NCBI RefSeq assembly: GCF_040712075.1
Contig: NZ_JBFCVL010000003.1
Location: 124,001-188,000, forward strand
DNA length: 64,000 nt
From: Fodinicurvata sp. EGI_FJ10296
GTDB lineage: Bacteria > Pseudomonadota > Alphaproteobacteria > DSM-16000 > Inquilinaceae
Direction of reading: 5' to 3'
Made by a program: the position numbers and the translations under genes. This document shows, piece after piece, positions 44,691 to 50,923 of this stretch (positions are counted from its first letter, which is position 1; the number at the start of each line of letters is the position of its first letter). Below the pieces are notes generated by a model. The model made no database searches. It had not been told where the DNA came from and worked only from the letters and a program-made list of their open reading frames with translations.

Positions 44691-45032
44691 ATGCAAGGAA
44701 TGGATGCCATCACCGGCGAGCCTCTGGCCGGAACGGACCATCTCGCCCAGTCGATTCGCGATATCCTGACCACGCGGGTCGGCACGCGCGTGATGCGCCG
44801 GGAATACGGCTCGGACCTGCCGCGCCTGGTCGATGCGCCGCTGACGCCCGCGACCGTGGTCGATTTCTACGCCGCCACCGCCAAAGCCCTGCGCCGGTGG
44901 GAGCCGAGGTTGAGGCTGACCCGGGTCCAGGCGGTCGCCGGATCGCGCCCCGGCCAGGTGGTGTTGAGCCTGACCGGCCGGGTGGTCGCAGACAATCAAT
45001 CCGTTTCCCTGACCGTGGAGCTGTCGCCATGA
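44691..45032 (+). CDS. Baseplate wedge protein W (gp25-like)
   Basis: 113 residues. GPW/gp25 family: TDHLAQSIRDILTTRVGTRVMRREYGSDLPRLVDAPL, including the conserved R-x-M-x-R-x-YGS. It has lysozyme-like ancestry but a structural role in the baseplate wedge. It is coupled to gene J by ATGA. Confidence 0.9.
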   Translation: MQGMDAITGEPLAGTDHLAQSIRDILTTRVGTRVMRREYGSDLPRLVDAPLTPATVVDFYAATAKALRRWEPRLRLTRVQAVAGSRPGQVVLSLTGRVVADNQSVSLTVELSP

Positions 45033-45943
45033 CCGACATCAATATCCCGCCAGTGCGGGCCTATGCCGGGGTGGATCTGGCCAGCTTCGAGCCGCCGCCG
45101 ATCGTCGACGAGGGCGACTTCGAGGTGATCTTTTCGGAGATGCGCGCCGAGTTGGTCCGGCGCTATCCGGATTACACGGCCATGGTCGAATCCGACCCGG
45201 TATCGGCACTGTTGCAGGCCAACGCCTGGCGCGAGCTGCTCCTGCGCCAGCGCATCAACGAGGCCTCGCGCGCGACCCTGCTGGCCAGCGCCCGGGGCGA
45301 GGATCTCGACCGCAAGGCCTGGGACCTGTCGCAGACCACGCGCCTACTGATCGAGCCCGGCGACCTGGACGCCCTGCCGCCGGTCGAACCGGTCTGGGAG
45401 GGCGATGACGCGTTGCGCGAACGCGCGCAGCTGGCGCTTTACCGGCTGAGCGTGGCCGGGCCGGACAATGCCTATATCTCCGCCGCCCGCGACGCGCATC
45501 CGGCAATCAAGTCGACCTCGGTCGCCAGCCCGGAACCGGGCCGGGTGATCGTCACGGTGCTGACCCGCGAGGGCAAGGGCGTGCCGGGACCGGAGGTGCT
45601 GGCGGCGGTCGAATCTGCGCTGTCGGCCCGCAATGTCCGGCCGCTGACCGACCAGGTCGAGATCCGCCCGGCCGCGATCCTCGTCTATCGGGTCGAGGCG
45701 CGCTTGCGGGTCTATGATGGCCCCGACGCCGAGGTGGTGCGGGCCGAAGCCGACAAGCGCCTGCGGGCCTACGTCGCCGCCCGGCACCGGCTGGGCGATC
45801 CGGTCACCCGCTCCGGCCTCTTTGCCGCCCTGTCGCCGCCGGGGGTCCAGCTGGTCACGCTCGACCGCCCGGCCGATCACATCCTGCCCACGTCCGGCGA
45901 GGCCGCGTGGTGCGAATCCATCACCATCACCCTGGAGGATTGA
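45029..45943 (+). CDS. Baseplate protein J
   Basis: 304 residues of the P2 gpJ/T4 gp6 type. The N-terminal LVRRYPDYTAMVESDPVSALLQANAWRELLLRQRINEASRATLLA and RARGEDLD-like segment, LRERAQLALYRLSVAGPDNAYISAARDAHP and the C-terminal SPPGVQLVTLDRPADHI are family marks. It forms the outer baseplate ring with W and I. Confidence 0.92.
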   Translation: MTDINIPPVRAYAGVDLASFEPPPIVDEGDFEVIFSEMRAELVRRYPDYTAMVESDPVSALLQANAWRELLLRQRINEASRATLLASARGEDLDRKAWDLSQTTRLLIEPGDLDALPPVEPVWEGDDALRERAQLALYRLSVAGPDNAYISAARDAHPAIKSTSVASPEPGRVIVTVLTREGKGVPGPEVLAAVESALSARNVRPLTDQVEIRPAAILVYRVEARLRVYDGPDAEVVRAEADKRLRAYVAARHRLGDPVTRSGLFAALSPPGVQLVTLDRPADHILPTSGEAAWCESITITLED

Positions 45944-45947
45944 CCCC

Positions 45948-46334
45948 ATGGCCCTGACACCCCTTGGCACCGACACCGCCGTTGCCGCGCTGGCGGCGGC
46001 CGCGACGTCCCTGTCGCTGCACGGCGACGATCCCGGCGCCGACGGCGCGCAGGAGATCGACGGCGGCGATTATGCCCGCCGCCCGGTGACCTGGAGCGAG
46101 CCGGAGAACGGCGCGGTTGCCGCCACCGGCACGATCGGCTTCGAGGTGCCAGCCGGCGCCGTCGTCTCCCATATCGGCTTGTGGTCCGGCGCCGGCGGCT
46201 TTCTGGCAAAGATCAGTGTGCCTGAGGAGATGTTCGGCTCGGCCGGCGAGTACCGCCTCACCGAACTGACGCTGACCGTCGGCGACTGCCCAGCGCCGAC
46301 TGACGGCCAATCGGGTGACGGGGGCGGCGCATGA
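45948..46334 (+). CDS. Phage tail-associated beta-rich protein
   Basis: 128 residues from ATG 45948 after GGAGG. It reads SLHGDDPGADGAQEIDGGDYARRPVTWSEPENGAVAATGTIGFEVPAGAVVSHIGLW. This pattern is widespread in small phage tail or fibre-associated proteins of unknown function. It lies between J and the tail protein I fusion. Overlap with the next gene is ATGA. Confidence 0.65.
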   Translation: MALTPLGTDTAVAALAAAATSLSLHGDDPGADGAQEIDGGDYARRPVTWSEPENGAVAATGTIGFEVPAGAVVSHIGLWSGAGGFLAKISVPEEMFGSAGEYRLTELTLTVGDCPAPTDGQSGDGGGA

Positions 46335-46789
46335 CGGCGCTGGTCTTTCCCGGTGAGGCCGACGCCGACGGCTGGGCGCCGGTGGTCGCCGCCCATCACC
46401 GCCCCGACGACCTGGCGCCCGAGCGCCGGGCCCAGGGCGTGGAAGTCGAAACCTGGGACCCGCCCGCCGACAGTGAATTCCGCACCCATGCCGCCTTCGT
46501 CCGGATCGAGACCGGTGCCGTCGAATATCGCCCGGTGGCCCGGCCGGTGGATCCGCGCCGCGTTCGCGCGCTGTTCACGCACGCCGAACGCCGGGCGATC
46601 AAGCTGGGCGACAGTCTGGACGCGGCCCAATCTGCCGACCTTGCCATCCTCTGGGAAGACGTCTTTGACCGCGAGACCGTCACCCTCGACGATCCGGCAC
46701 TGGCCGACCTGCTCGACTGGCTGGTCGCCCGCGATCTGCTGACCGCCGAGCGCCGGGAGGCGATCGCCTCCGGCCAGCCGCCTGCCTGA
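46331..46789 (+). CDS. Hypothetical tail protein
   Basis: 152 residues. The N-terminal part is proline-rich; the C-terminus is helical (VRALFTHAERRAIKLGDSLDAAQSADLAILWEDVFDRETVTLDDPALADLLDWLVARDLLTAERREAI). No family is recognised. Its position and overlap place it in the baseplate module. Confidence 0.58.
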   Translation: MTALVFPGEADADGWAPVVAAHHRPDDLAPERRAQGVEVETWDPPADSEFRTHAAFVRIETGAVEYRPVARPVDPRRVRALFTHAERRAIKLGDSLDAAQSADLAILWEDVFDRETVTLDDPALADLLDWLVARDLLTAERREAIASGQPPA

Positions 46790-46820: not shown

Positions 46821-49115
46821 ATGACCGAACCCGCGCCCTATCTCGTCGGCAGCGATCAGCTGACCGACGGGACCGGTCTGCGCGGATTCGGGACCGACGG
46901 TACACCGCTCTGGACGCGGGAGAGCCGGGCGTCGGCGCTGGCCCGTCATCGCGACGGCTGGCTGGTCGCCGGTGGTGCCAGCCGGGTCCGGCGCCTCGAC
47001 CCCGACGGAGCGGAGATCTGGTCGGCGGAGGCCGGCGGTACCCTGCGCGCCGTCGCCGTCAATCTGGCCGGTACGGTGGTCGCCGCCACCGCCAGCGGCG
47101 TGGCTGCCTTCGACGCCGGCGGGGCGCCGCTATGGACGGTACCCAGCGGTTCCGACGTCTGGGGCGTGGCCATCGACCGCGACGGCGGCATCGCGCTGGC
47201 CCGGGTCGATGGCCGGGTCGAGCGCCGCGACGCCGGCGGTGCCCTGATCTGGGCGGTCGAGCGCGGCGCCGCCGCGATCGCGGTCGCGCTGACCTCCGCC
47301 GGTGGCGTCATTGCCGCCGGCAGTGCCGACGGCGACGGCCGGCATCTGAACGTCTATGAGGCCGACGGCACCCCGCGCTGGTCGGCATCGTTCGGCACGG
47401 CCCCTTATATCTGGGCCGTCGCGGTCGATGATCGCGGCCATGTCACGGTCGGCGGCGCCCCCGATGCCGGCATCGTCGCCCGCCAATACACCGGCGACGG
47501 CGATGTCGTGTGGTCGAGCACCGCCGGCAACCCGGGCCAGATCCGCGCCGTTTCGGTGACGCCGGACGGGACGGTGCTGACCGCCGGCGCCTGGGGCAGT
47601 GGTCCGAAAGCGGCGCTGCTCGATGCCGGTACCGGCACGGTGATCTGGACCGATGACAGCTTCGACCGCGCCGCCTCGACAGCGGCGGTACCGGGCGTGC
47701 GCGGCGGCGGCCACTGGCGCCACGAAGCCGAACGGGCGGCGCATAGTCGGGCCACGGCGACCCTTGCGGCCACCAGCGGCAAGCGCAGTACCGGGGCCGG
47801 ATCGGTGCCGGCAACGGGCAGCGTCGCCGGGATGGGCCGCAAGCGGATATCCCGCACGCCGACGATCGACGCTGGTGTGGGCATCACGGCTGGCGGAACG
47901 AAGCATGCTTTCGTCTCAGCCGCCGTCGACGCGGGAGCGCAAACAACCGGTGTCGCGCGCAAGTCGATCCCGGCCGCCGCCATGGTCCGGGCCGGTGCCG
48001 TTACCGACGCCCGGGCGTTCAAGCGGTCGAGCGGCGGCGGATTGTTCGCCGCCGGCGCCATCCTCGGCGCCAGTGGCGTGACGATCACGGACCAGCCGGC
48101 CGAACCGCTGATCGTCACTGTCGACGTAACCGTCACGGCAGGGGCCAGCCTCGACGGTACGGCCGGTCGGATCGTCGGCGGAACGGCAGCGGTCCCGGCC
48201 GTCGGGACGATGGCCGGGACCGGCCACAAGCGCGCCGACCGCACCGGGGCAACCGCTTTCGCATTCGGGATCGGGGGGCATGGCCGGCCGCACCGGCGGG
48301 GCACTGTCAACATCATTGCCGGCGGCACCGGACGGGCGGTGGCGAACGGCAGCCGATCGGGCGCGGCGATACTGAAGGCCGTCGGCACCGGCGAGGCCGC
48401 CACGACCGCCACCCACTACGGCCGGGCACGTGTCCGCATCGGCACGCACGGCCAAGCGGCGTTCACGACCGCCAAGCCGACGCCGACGCTGCTGCCGTCG
48501 AGCGCGACCAACGAGATGCGCGCGCTCGAGGCCGTGACCGTTCGCGCCACCGATCTGCCCGCCCTGCACCGGCACAACGCCGATCCGGAGCGGGTGCGCT
48601 CGCAGCTGCTGCCCTGGCAGGCCTGGGAGCGCGCCGTTGATATCTGGGACACAACCTGGCCCGACGCCACCAAGCGCGCGGTCTCGGGTCGCGCCATCGC
48701 CACCCACCGCATCCGGGGCACACCGGCGGCGGTGGAATCGGCACTCGCCAGCCTCGGCGTCGACGATGCCGTACTGACCGAATGGTTCGAGGATACGCCC
48801 GAAGGCCCGCCCTACACCTTCCGCGCCACCGTCACCCGGGCCGGAGGCATCGAGCGCGGGCTGACCCGCAATCTCGGCCGCGCGGTCGCCGCCTCGAAGA
48901 ACACCCGCAGCCACATGACCCGGCTGACCCTGGTCGTGCCGATGGCCGCGACCACGCTTCATGCCGCCCCGGCCGCGCTCAGCGGCCAGGCGGTCACCGT
49001 CGCCCCGATCTGGGATCCGCCGGGACCGATCATGGGGGCAACGGCCGGCGCGAGCGCAATTCACAGCGTCACGGCCGTCACCGTGCCCGCTCACAATGAG
49101 GATACCGATGCCTGA
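46821..49115 (+). CDS. Tail protein I fused to an N-terminal seven-bladed beta-propeller
   Basis: 764 residues in one frame. Residues 20-290 contain seven D-x-DG-x3-W signatures (GTPLW, GAEIW, GAPLW, GALIW, GTPRW, GDVVW, GTVIW), the PQQ/WD-like propeller pattern with about 37-45 residues per blade. Residues 300-560 are a Gly/Ala/Thr-rich repeated region. Residues about 562-720 match P2 tail protein I: RATDLPALHRHNADPERVRSQLLPWQAWERAVDIWDTTWPDATKRAVS. Normal gpI has about 180-230 residues, so the first 560 are an addition. Propeller use as a receptor- or glycan-binding module is inferred. Confidence 0.82.
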   Translation: MTEPAPYLVGSDQLTDGTGLRGFGTDGTPLWTRESRASALARHRDGWLVAGGASRVRRLDPDGAEIWSAEAGGTLRAVAVNLAGTVVAATASGVAAFDAGGAPLWTVPSGSDVWGVAIDRDGGIALARVDGRVERRDAGGALIWAVERGAAAIAVALTSAGGVIAAGSADGDGRHLNVYEADGTPRWSASFGTAPYIWAVAVDDRGHVTVGGAPDAGIVARQYTGDGDVVWSSTAGNPGQIRAVSVTPDGTVLTAGAWGSGPKAALLDAGTGTVIWTDDSFDRAASTAAVPGVRGGGHWRHEAERAAHSRATATLAATSGKRSTGAGSVPATGSVAGMGRKRISRTPTIDAGVGITAGGTKHAFVSAAVDAGAQTTGVARKSIPAAAMVRAGAVTDARAFKRSSGGGLFAAGAILGASGVTITDQPAEPLIVTVDVTVTAGASLDGTAGRIVGGTAAVPAVGTMAGTGHKRADRTGATAFAFGIGGHGRPHRRGTVNIIAGGTGRAVANGSRSGAAILKAVGTGEAATTATHYGRARVRIGTHGQAAFTTAKPTPTLLPSSATNEMRALEAVTVRATDLPALHRHNADPERVRSQLLPWQAWERAVDIWDTTWPDATKRAVSGRAIATHRIRGTPAAVESALASLGVDDAVLTEWFEDTPEGPPYTFRATVTRAGGIERGLTRNLGRAVAASKNTRSHMTRLTLVVPMAATTLHAAPAALSGQAVTVAPIWDPPGPIMGATAGASAIHSVTAVTVPAHNEDTDA

Positions 49116-50442
49116 CCAGGACTATTACACCATTCTGACCGATACCGGCCGGGCCGAACTGGCCGCCGCCATGGCAGACGACAGCCCGCTCGGTATCACC
49201 GAGGCGGCGCTGGGCGACGGCGGCGGGGCGAGCTATGACCCGAGCCCGGACCAGACGGCGCTGGTCGGCGAATGGCACCGCCGGCCGATCAACCGGATCA
49301 CGGTCGACCCGGCCAACCCGCATTGGGTGGTGGTCGAGGTGGTGGTGCCGATGTCCGTCGGCGGGCATTACGTGCGCGAGGTCGGGCTGATCGACAGCGA
49401 CGGCGCCCTGATCGCAATCGCCAAGTTCCCGCCGACTTACAAACCCACCCTGATCGCCGGTACCGGATCGGACCTTGTCATCCGGGTGATCCTGGAAGTG
49501 GCCAACGCCGACAGCGTTGAGCTGCTGATCGACCCGACAGTGGTCACCGCAAGCCGTGCCTATGTCGACCAGACGGTCGGGGCGATGGCCGGCGATCTGA
49601 CGCAGGCGATCGAGACGATGCGCGACGAGGTCGAGCAATCGATCGGCGACCTCCGCGCGGCCCGCGAGGCCCTGGCGGCGACCATGGGCGATTATCGCCT
49701 CGCCCCCATCTTTCCAGAAATCGAGACCGGGGGCGGCCGTTTGCCGGTCTCGGCCGAACATGGCGGCATCACGACGGGGGCGGCGACGCTGCTGCATCGT
49801 GGCGGCCGGCGGTTCGATCTGGGCACCATTGCTGACAGAAACTTCCCGACGGCGCCGAACCGCACCTATCACCTGCGTTGGCTGGCGCCGGGACAGCATA
49901 ACGTCGAGCCAACGATATGGCCGGCGGGGCGGCTGGTGCTGCGCGACCTGAGCGATCCGGCCTACAATCCCCACGGCCGGGCCGAGGATCACAGTGTCTT
50001 CGATACCGGCTATGACGACGCATTGGTGGCGCGGGTCGTTACCGGCGGCGCCAACACACCGGCCGTCACGCCGCTGATCAATCGCGCAACGCTCACCTGG
50101 AACGAGCAAAGCGCCATCTATTCCAATGATCCACCGTTCCGCAACCGCTTCGAGTTGATCACCGGCAGCAACTCGATCCGGGCGACCATCGCCTCGGCCC
50201 CCTATAACTGGAGCCGTGTACCGCGTCTGCGGTCCTTTGGCGGCGTCGTCGGCTGGGGCAACCTTTATGCCTACGAAGTTCAGCCGGCAACCTCAGGCGT
50301 CGCGAATAACATGACCCTTACCGAGGTCAACCGGTACGGCGCCGAGATCCAGGGTTTTTCCGATTATCGCGGCGGTGATGGCCCGTTCCATCTATCGACG
50401 GACCGCATCTACATCGTCGGCCGATTCCACTTCACGGCTTGA
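49108..50442 (+). CDS. Tail fibre protein (P2 gpH-like collar/fibre)
   Basis: 444 residues. The N-terminal 150 are the DUF3751-type attachment domain: YYTILTDTGRAELAAAMADDSPLGITEAALGDGGG, HYVREVGLIDSDGALIAIAKFP. A short coiled coil follows (LTQAIETMRDEVEQSIGDLRAAREALAATM). The C-terminal 220 residues are beta-rich and would bind the receptor. It overlaps the gpI fusion by 8 bases. Confidence 0.85.
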   Translation: MPDQDYYTILTDTGRAELAAAMADDSPLGITEAALGDGGGASYDPSPDQTALVGEWHRRPINRITVDPANPHWVVVEVVVPMSVGGHYVREVGLIDSDGALIAIAKFPPTYKPTLIAGTGSDLVIRVILEVANADSVELLIDPTVVTASRAYVDQTVGAMAGDLTQAIETMRDEVEQSIGDLRAAREALAATMGDYRLAPIFPEIETGGGRLPVSAEHGGITTGAATLLHRGGRRFDLGTIADRNFPTAPNRTYHLRWLAPGQHNVEPTIWPAGRLVLRDLSDPAYNPHGRAEDHSVFDTGYDDALVARVVTGGANTPAVTPLINRATLTWNEQSAIYSNDPPFRNRFELITGSNSIRATIASAPYNWSRVPRLRSFGGVVGWGNLYAYEVQPATSGVANNMTLTEVNRYGAEIQGFSDYRGGDGPFHLSTDRIYIVGRFHFTA

Positions 50443-50456
50443 GAGGATACCCTTCC

Positions 50457-50651
50457 ATGCGTTTTGCGATTTCCAATGGCGAGGCCGTCGTCTCGATTGT
50501 CGATGGCGACGGGGCCGAAGGACTGCCCGGCGCCGTGCCGATCCCCGAGGCGTTGGCCGGCTATCCGATCGACCGGCTGGTCATCCGCGACGGCCAAATC
50601 GTGCCTTCGCCCGAAAGCGTAAACGACCCGGCCCGGTCCGAAACCCGCTAA
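50457..50651 (+). CDS. Small hypothetical late protein downstream of the fibre
   Basis: 64 residues from ATG 50457 after GAGAGGATA. It reads MRFAISNGEAVVSIVDGDGAEGLPGAV, beta-rich and acidic. The position right after a fibre gene is that of tail-fibre assembly proteins, but it is much shorter than those and has no matching domain. The role is unknown. Confidence 0.55.
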   Translation: MRFAISNGEAVVSIVDGDGAEGLPGAVPIPEALAGYPIDRLVIRDGQIVPSPESVNDPARSETR

Positions 50652-50923
50652 ACGATATCGTCGAGATCGACCTGCAAGGCTCCGGCGATGGCTTTCAGCA
50701 CCGACAGACTGCCGTCCTTTCGGCCGGTCTCGATCTCCGAGAGATAGGCCGTGCCGATGCCGGCGGCGGTGGCCAGGCCCTCGAGCGTCATTCGGCGATG
50801 CTCCCGCCAGACCCGCACCGGGTTCTCACCGGCGTTTACCCGGCGTGAAACCGCAGCCGGCGTCAACTGATCGACGCTCCGGCGAATGGCTTGGGCGAAC
50901 GACAGTTCGCGGTCATCAGGCAC
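50648..50923 (-). CDS. Solo XRE-family regulator on the opposite strand in the tail operon
   Basis: 91 residues from GTG 50923, preceded by GGAG. A helix-turn-helix spans residues 35-85 (NPVRVWREHRRMTLEGLATAAGIGTAYLSEIETGRKDGSLSVLKAIAGALQVDLDD). No toxin-like frame adjoins it. It overlaps the small fibre-downstream gene tail-to-tail by 4 bases. It may be an antitoxin-like regulator expressed from the lysogen. Confidence 0.8.
   Translation of the reverse strand: MPDDRELSFAQAIRRSVDQLTPAAVSRRVNAGENPVRVWREHRRMTLEGLATAAGIGTAYLSEIETGRKDGSLSVLKAIAGALQVDLDDIV

Follow-up and report, generated by a model that had tools for sequence, protein, structure and literature searches.

The tail protein gpI is usually viewed as a structural wedge that anchors the fibres. 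What, then, would a beta-propeller do at its N-terminus? The question is raised by a gene in the window (the whole stretch of DNA analyzed here, 64,000 nucleotides long), where positions 46821..49115 form a single, uninterrupted open frame of 764 amino acids that reads, from N- to C-terminus, as a beta-propeller (~1-290), a Gly/Ala/Thr/Arg-rich spacer (~320-556), and a P2 gpI domain (557-705). The gene lies in a prophage with a contractile tail that encodes terminase, portal, protease, decoration protein, capsid, gpW, tail proteins, and endolysin, together with a PAAR spike, gpJ, gpH, sheath, and tape measure. It follows gpW and gpJ and precedes gpH, as is usual for gpI, and two further genes, X and Y, are located between J and I:

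44700..45032, + strand: gpW, a gp25-like sheath initiator (phrog_43 baseplate wedge subunit, E 3.7e-40)
45032..45943, + strand: gpJ, baseplate wedge partner of gpI (PF04865, E 4.2e-20; 90-91% identical between prophages)
45948..46334, + strand: gene X, 128 amino acids, Gp80-like (podophage GP4 fibre I; PF23140, E 1.3e-7; 56% identical homologue X' in locus L119)
46331..46789, + strand: gene Y, 152 amino acids, no assigned function (phrog_25252; 42% identical homologue Y' in L119)
46821..47720, + strand: predicted seven-bladed beta-propeller, residues 1-300 of the gpI fusion, with seven Trp motifs (homology, model, motifs, omega 0.17-0.25 between prophage copies)
47721..47780, + strand: junction, residues 301-320, with a modelled helix at 300-318 of low confidence (largely unchanged in sequence across the three copies)
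47781..48488, + strand: spacer, residues 321-556, with a 20-residue repeat period, fast evolving and one unit shorter in both sister prophages (period, copy alignment; modelled without structure)
48489..49112, + strand: P2 gpI / Tail_P2_I domain, residues 557-764 (Pfam match at 558-696; core pLDDT ~95)
49096..50442, + strand: gpH tail-collar fibre, conserved in its N-terminal part and replaced at residues 181-448 between prophages (PF12571, E 5.5e-51)

At 49636-50442 of the window the C-terminal part of gpH is replaced though both flanks are >90% identical, a configuration that reads as a fibre-tip swap. Between gpH and the sheath gene, a small helix-turn-helix protein of 91 amino acids is encoded on the opposite strand to the tail genes (50648-50923, - strand).

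The C-terminal part of the protein was described in an earlier note, made from the sequence alone, as a normal P2 tail protein I domain at about 562-720, and the family comparisons agree. PF09684 matches end to end at 558-696 (E 9.5e-32; 110 bits vs a cut-off of 20.6), TIGR01634 matches with E 5.6e-24 (84.6 bits vs 30.05), and the R-pyocin wedge protein Tri2 (PDB 6u5b) is matched with E 7.7e-19. The CIS12 family NF053768 has no match in the 764-residue protein, and TIGR02242 stays below its threshold (15 bits vs 51.85). The single uninterrupted frame pointed out in the same note recurs in two further prophages of this genome (C5:381767-383998 and C2:67627-69846), whose copies are full length and 80-82% identical. 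Two separate genes, the alternative that had been raised at the outset, and likewise a frameshift, sequencing, or assembly error are ruled out, because three prophages encode the full length with a conserved frame and with purifying selection on both ends. Production of a short gpI from an internal start was also considered and rejected: no start codon with a ribosome-binding site was found within the open frame ahead of the gpI domain, so a separate short gpI is unlikely. An unfused Tail_P2_I gene is absent from the genome, which holds only the three fusion copies.

Residues ~1-290 are assigned, by homology and a structural model, to a seven-bladed PQQ/WRAP-type beta-propeller. Seven [D/G/T]G-x3-W motifs, ending at W31, 67, 105, 144, 187, 231, and 276, are spaced 36-45 residues apart (the scan pattern also counted one off-period match in the window copy), and all seven motif Trp residues are invariant across the three copies. 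A chance origin of the seven motifs is very unlikely, since 20,000 shuffles of residues 1-300 averaged 0.7 such motifs and never exceeded six. They had been written as seven D-x-DG-x3-W motifs; the seven Trp motifs stand, but the stricter D-x-x-G-x3-W is present only three times, so the wording was loose, a minor error. The region matches phrog_8401 'beta-propeller repeat protein' (E 8.5e-17) and, in the PDB, designed 'Cake' propellers and the PQQ-type 3hxj (E 1e-16 to 3e-10). Structure prediction, proposed in the earlier note as the way to confirm or dismiss an N-terminal seven-bladed propeller, supports it as well: a single-sequence AF2 model of residues 1-310 contains six four-stranded blades and the N-terminal strands of a seventh (pLDDT 61, pTM 0.64; ~70-86 in blades 2-5), the strand that closes the ring being of low confidence in this model built from one sequence. 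VIA-align superimposes the model on the 7-bladed nvWrap-T with Z 27.8 and rmsd 2.8 over 257 residues. In the full-length model the propeller is retained, the gpI core reaches a pLDDT of ~95, and the spacer stays at ~25.

The spacer had been characterized as a repeated Gly/Ala/Thr-rich region, and its repeats are real. A 20-residue period is present in all three copies (z 5.9, 3.4, and 3.7); in the window copy the clearest repeat array covers residues 309-428 and is followed by a divergent stretch and then a second group of units. At the DNA level the spacer no longer has convincing tandem repeats, and the period is therefore considered old. From the propeller end to the gpI start there are 256 residues in the window copy but 236 in each sister, so the copies differ by precisely one unit; this length difference and the 20-residue period are newly noted here. 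Residues 321-556 are 52-71% identical between copies, with raised synonymous differences (0.30-0.46 vs 0.17-0.22 elsewhere). A spacer that changes its length between two conserved domains probably serves as a tether.

Both ends of the protein evolve slowly. By the Nei-Gojobori method, dN/dS comes to 0.17-0.25 in the propeller and 0.15-0.18 in the gpI domain, meaning that the two are under purifying selection of about the same strength. At 92-93%, conservation of the propeller between prophages is comparable to that of gpJ (90-91%). When the three prophages are compared gene by gene, gpJ, X, Y, the propeller, the gpI domain, and the N-terminal part of gpH are 87-98% identical in both sisters, while for terminase, portal, capsid, and tape measure the identity of the C2 prophage to the window prophage drops to 32-38%. 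Similarity of the C-terminal part of gpH (181-448) to either sister prophage is undetectable. This pattern indicates that the propeller and the baseplate wedge module (W-J-X-Y-I-gpH(N)) are passed on together and that the swappable part is the fibre tip, and it constitutes the main argument against the propeller as a host-range determinant. Diversification or swapping is common, though not obligatory, for receptor-binding proteins; here the propeller is kept and the gpH C-terminal part is replaced.

One more propeller of the same family is found in the host. A stand-alone protein of 566 amino acids on contig C6 (L119:11488-13188) is 31% identical over the matched stretch, lacks a gpI domain, and has an acidic (DDQSG)n linker/tail instead of the 20-residue units. 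It is flanked by X' and Y' (region L119:11081-13518), with flagellar genes beyond one end and a phosphoketolase-like gene beyond the other (names read from sequence). X, the propeller, and Y thus occur together in two settings, which would make them cassette-like. IMG/VR yielded no relatives of the C6 propeller. A simple host-cell origin of the propeller was rejected, because the host search turned up just this one other member of the family, and its neighbours X' and Y' are related to the phage genes X and Y. X' has a match to phrog_240, a family labelled head protein, and X-like genes are present among the minor tail proteins of some actinophages; gene Y has no phage matches at E 0.01. On another contig (L132:4468-8668), an X-like gene precedes a 1268-residue tail protein with Ala/Thr/Arg-rich repeats behind an N-terminal region that is lectin-like by eye. 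The likeness of this protein to the spacer is by eye with a weak match (E 0.29), and it may share the spacer principle.

The place of gpI in the baseplate can be approached through Mu, in which the equivalent wedge protein gp48 is found at the baseplate periphery with its N-terminus in the core bundle and the apex near the sheath initiator, residues 133-155 forming a fibre-docking loop (PMC11915804). The same triplex plan has been described for diffocin (PMC10996793). By analogy, and given that gpI aligns with Tri2, gpI is presumably arranged like Mu gp48, in which case the tether would start at the gpI end opposite the fibre-docking loop, on the sheath-proximal side. The earlier description of tail protein I as sitting where fibres join the baseplate is imprecise: Mu gp48 does dock a fibre through residues 133-155, but its N-terminus is near the sheath initiator, away from this loop.

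A second receptor-binding or decoration role for the propeller, as first proposed, is plausible, and its 92-93% conservation suggests that decoration or a constant secondary adhesin fits better than a second specificity determinant. The protein is tentatively regarded as a chimeric gpI whose tethered propeller most likely acts as a constant secondary adhesin, the C-terminal part of gpH deciding specificity. In each of the six wedges of the baseplate, the C-terminal domain would occupy the position normal for a gpI/Tri2/gp7-like protein, and a tether made up of 20-residue units would connect it to a rigid propeller of seven blades at the N-terminus. Since the genome lacks an unfused gpI and the gpI domain is not preceded by any start with a ribosome-binding site, each wedge would bear one propeller, and a virion would bear six because it has six wedges. 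These propellers would start near the sheath-proximal side and be free to reach outward, on a tether possibly long enough to reach outside, where each would attach the virion to a widely shared ligand, probably a glycan, that is either exposed on the surface or extracellular. Specificity would be set by the swappable gpH C-terminal part. A constant secondary adhesin would explain the conservation, the purifying selection, and the changeable tether; in its favour are also the full-length frame in three prophages with omega 0.15-0.25 at both ends, the wedge-linked inheritance, and two propeller precedents, the five-bladed propeller of the phi11 RBP, with a cavity that could hold GlcNAc, and the seven-bladed PhiKZ gp131C at the baseplate periphery (PMC4901313). 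However, receptor-binding tips are usually less conserved than this propeller, a start near the sheath initiator is not an obvious adhesin site, and the spacer is without order in the model.

The linkage with X and Y fits equally well with a docking platform, which is the main rival and a real possibility. Here the propeller would be structural, for example seating X (with Y as a helper) or bracing the baseplate against the sheath, without direct host contact. That X and Y homologues also flank the stand-alone propeller is readily understood on these terms, as is conservation at the level of gpJ, and in SU10 a seven-bladed propeller of the nozzle protein carries a fibre-docking loop (PMC9509320). 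A platform for X and Y would account for conservation and linkage as well as an adhesin would, but a long, fast-changing tether is odd for a rigid brace, and X-like proteins exist in actinophages without an identified propeller neighbour.

Of the other readings, that of a second specificity determinant, in line with the receptor-binding role suggested in the earlier note, would have the propeller recognize a strain-variable receptor and so contribute to host range; it draws on the peripheral position of gpI, on the propellers of phage receptor-binding proteins (PMC4901313), and on the changes between propeller copies, which are densest in blade 1 (8/38 positions). It is nevertheless unlikely, given an omega of 0.17-0.25 and strong conservation of the propeller between prophages whose gpH C-terminal parts share no similarity. 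A tolerated fusion without present benefit would suit a form that, among the genomes sampled, is found exactly as such only in its own genome, but it is improbable for a propeller that is under about the same purifying selection as the gpI domain and has been kept in three otherwise diverged prophages. Least probable is an enzyme that cleaves a surface polymer: enzymes with propeller folds exist, and the nearest folds to the model include CylK, an alkylating enzyme that has a propeller, yet the closest sequence matches (designed propellers and a PQQ-type protein) are uninformative for catalysis and no active-site motif was identified.

Whichever role applies, the architecture combines known parts, a propeller and gpI, in a new way, and the domain arrangement is rare but not unique. 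Tail protein I was said to be usually under 230 residues, in keeping with the IMG/VR gpI frames, 78 of 80 of which measure 180-262 amino acids and none of which has >58 amino acids before the domain. Close relatives of the propeller amount to two in 50,697 phage records (~22-24% identical) and none in IMG/VR or among 385 genomes sampled from the class. Neither the whole protein nor the X alignment matched anything when scanned against genome contigs; the genome surveys are samples, and such pattern scans detect close relatives only. Among strong-scoring gpI proteins outside the own genome, no N-terminal propeller was seen in the long frames read out from the class sample (385 genomes, 19 with Tail_P2_I) and the phylum sample (398 genomes, 52 with Tail_P2_I). 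In two genomes of one genus, gpI has a different N-terminal extension of 263 residues (L026:3612-4925, L027:3625-4938, minus strand), which is lectin-like by eye and has very weak matches to carbohydrate-binding modules.

The search for other propeller-gpI fusions recommended earlier did find some. On three IMG/VR phage contigs (L133-L135; also L102:3495-5069), a canonical gpI is followed by a WD40-like C-terminal propeller in one 524-residue frame, with PF09684 at 5-143 (E 4.7e-45), propeller families at ~190-490 (best E 4e-11), and a W-J-I-H gene order. At two non-phage loci, L018 and L019, a gpI-like TIGR02242 domain stands behind a long N-terminal region, which matches NHL repeats in L019 and weakly resembles the window propeller in L018 (E 6e-8, a single comparison); by eye, the neighbouring genes look injection-system-like. 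Propeller-gpI joins recur independently, including in reverse order and, with an NHL propeller, at an injection-system-like locus, a further point in favour of the secondary adhesin. Within the open-licence literature, one paper names both Tail_P2_I and beta-propeller, and its propellers are in fibres and not in the wedge protein (PMC12923769).

Fusions in either domain order suggest that phages can put constant surface modules on the wedge, independent of the fibre genes. If true, two-level adsorption, pairing a constant grip with a swappable specificity, could arise by a simple natural route, and convergence of phage baseplates with contractile injection systems could be put to the test here. 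A more speculative and somewhat doubtful extension is that contractile tails generally use the gpI wedge as a display port, to which propellers have been added independently at either end in phages and injection-system-like loci; here the port would hold a mobile X-propeller-Y adhesion cassette, also present detached in the chromosome, with its reach set by the 20-residue tether.

Compared with P2 gpI, Tri2, and PF09684, the window protein has a full canonical domain (residues 557-705) in the usual gpW-gpJ-...-gpH neighbourhood, but differs by 556 extra N-terminal residues and by X and Y between J and I. The fusions on L133-L135 likewise join a canonical gpI and a propeller in one frame within a W-J-I-H cluster, although their propeller is WD40-like and C-terminal, the long repeat spacer is missing, and the protein has 524 amino acids. 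L018 and L019 (TIGR02242; CIS12-like) share an N-terminal propeller-like region and a gpI-like domain in one frame, whereas their gpI domain is divergent (TIGR02242 vs TIGR01634), the propeller is NHL-type, and the gene cluster is another one. PhiKZ gp131C and the phi11 RBP are also beta-propellers at or on phage baseplates, gp131C being seven-bladed like the window propeller and phi11 five-bladed, but they are separate proteins in which the propeller is a C-terminal or middle domain, unfused to the wedge. In AlgoCIS, the gp7-like wedge part Alg12 is exposed at the periphery and has been described as an evolutionary hotspot (PMC8894135), and in tCIS an extra domain of Cis12 reaches the thylakoid membrane, without mention of a propeller (PMC8894136); in this wedge part they resemble the window protein, but both are injection systems rather than phages.
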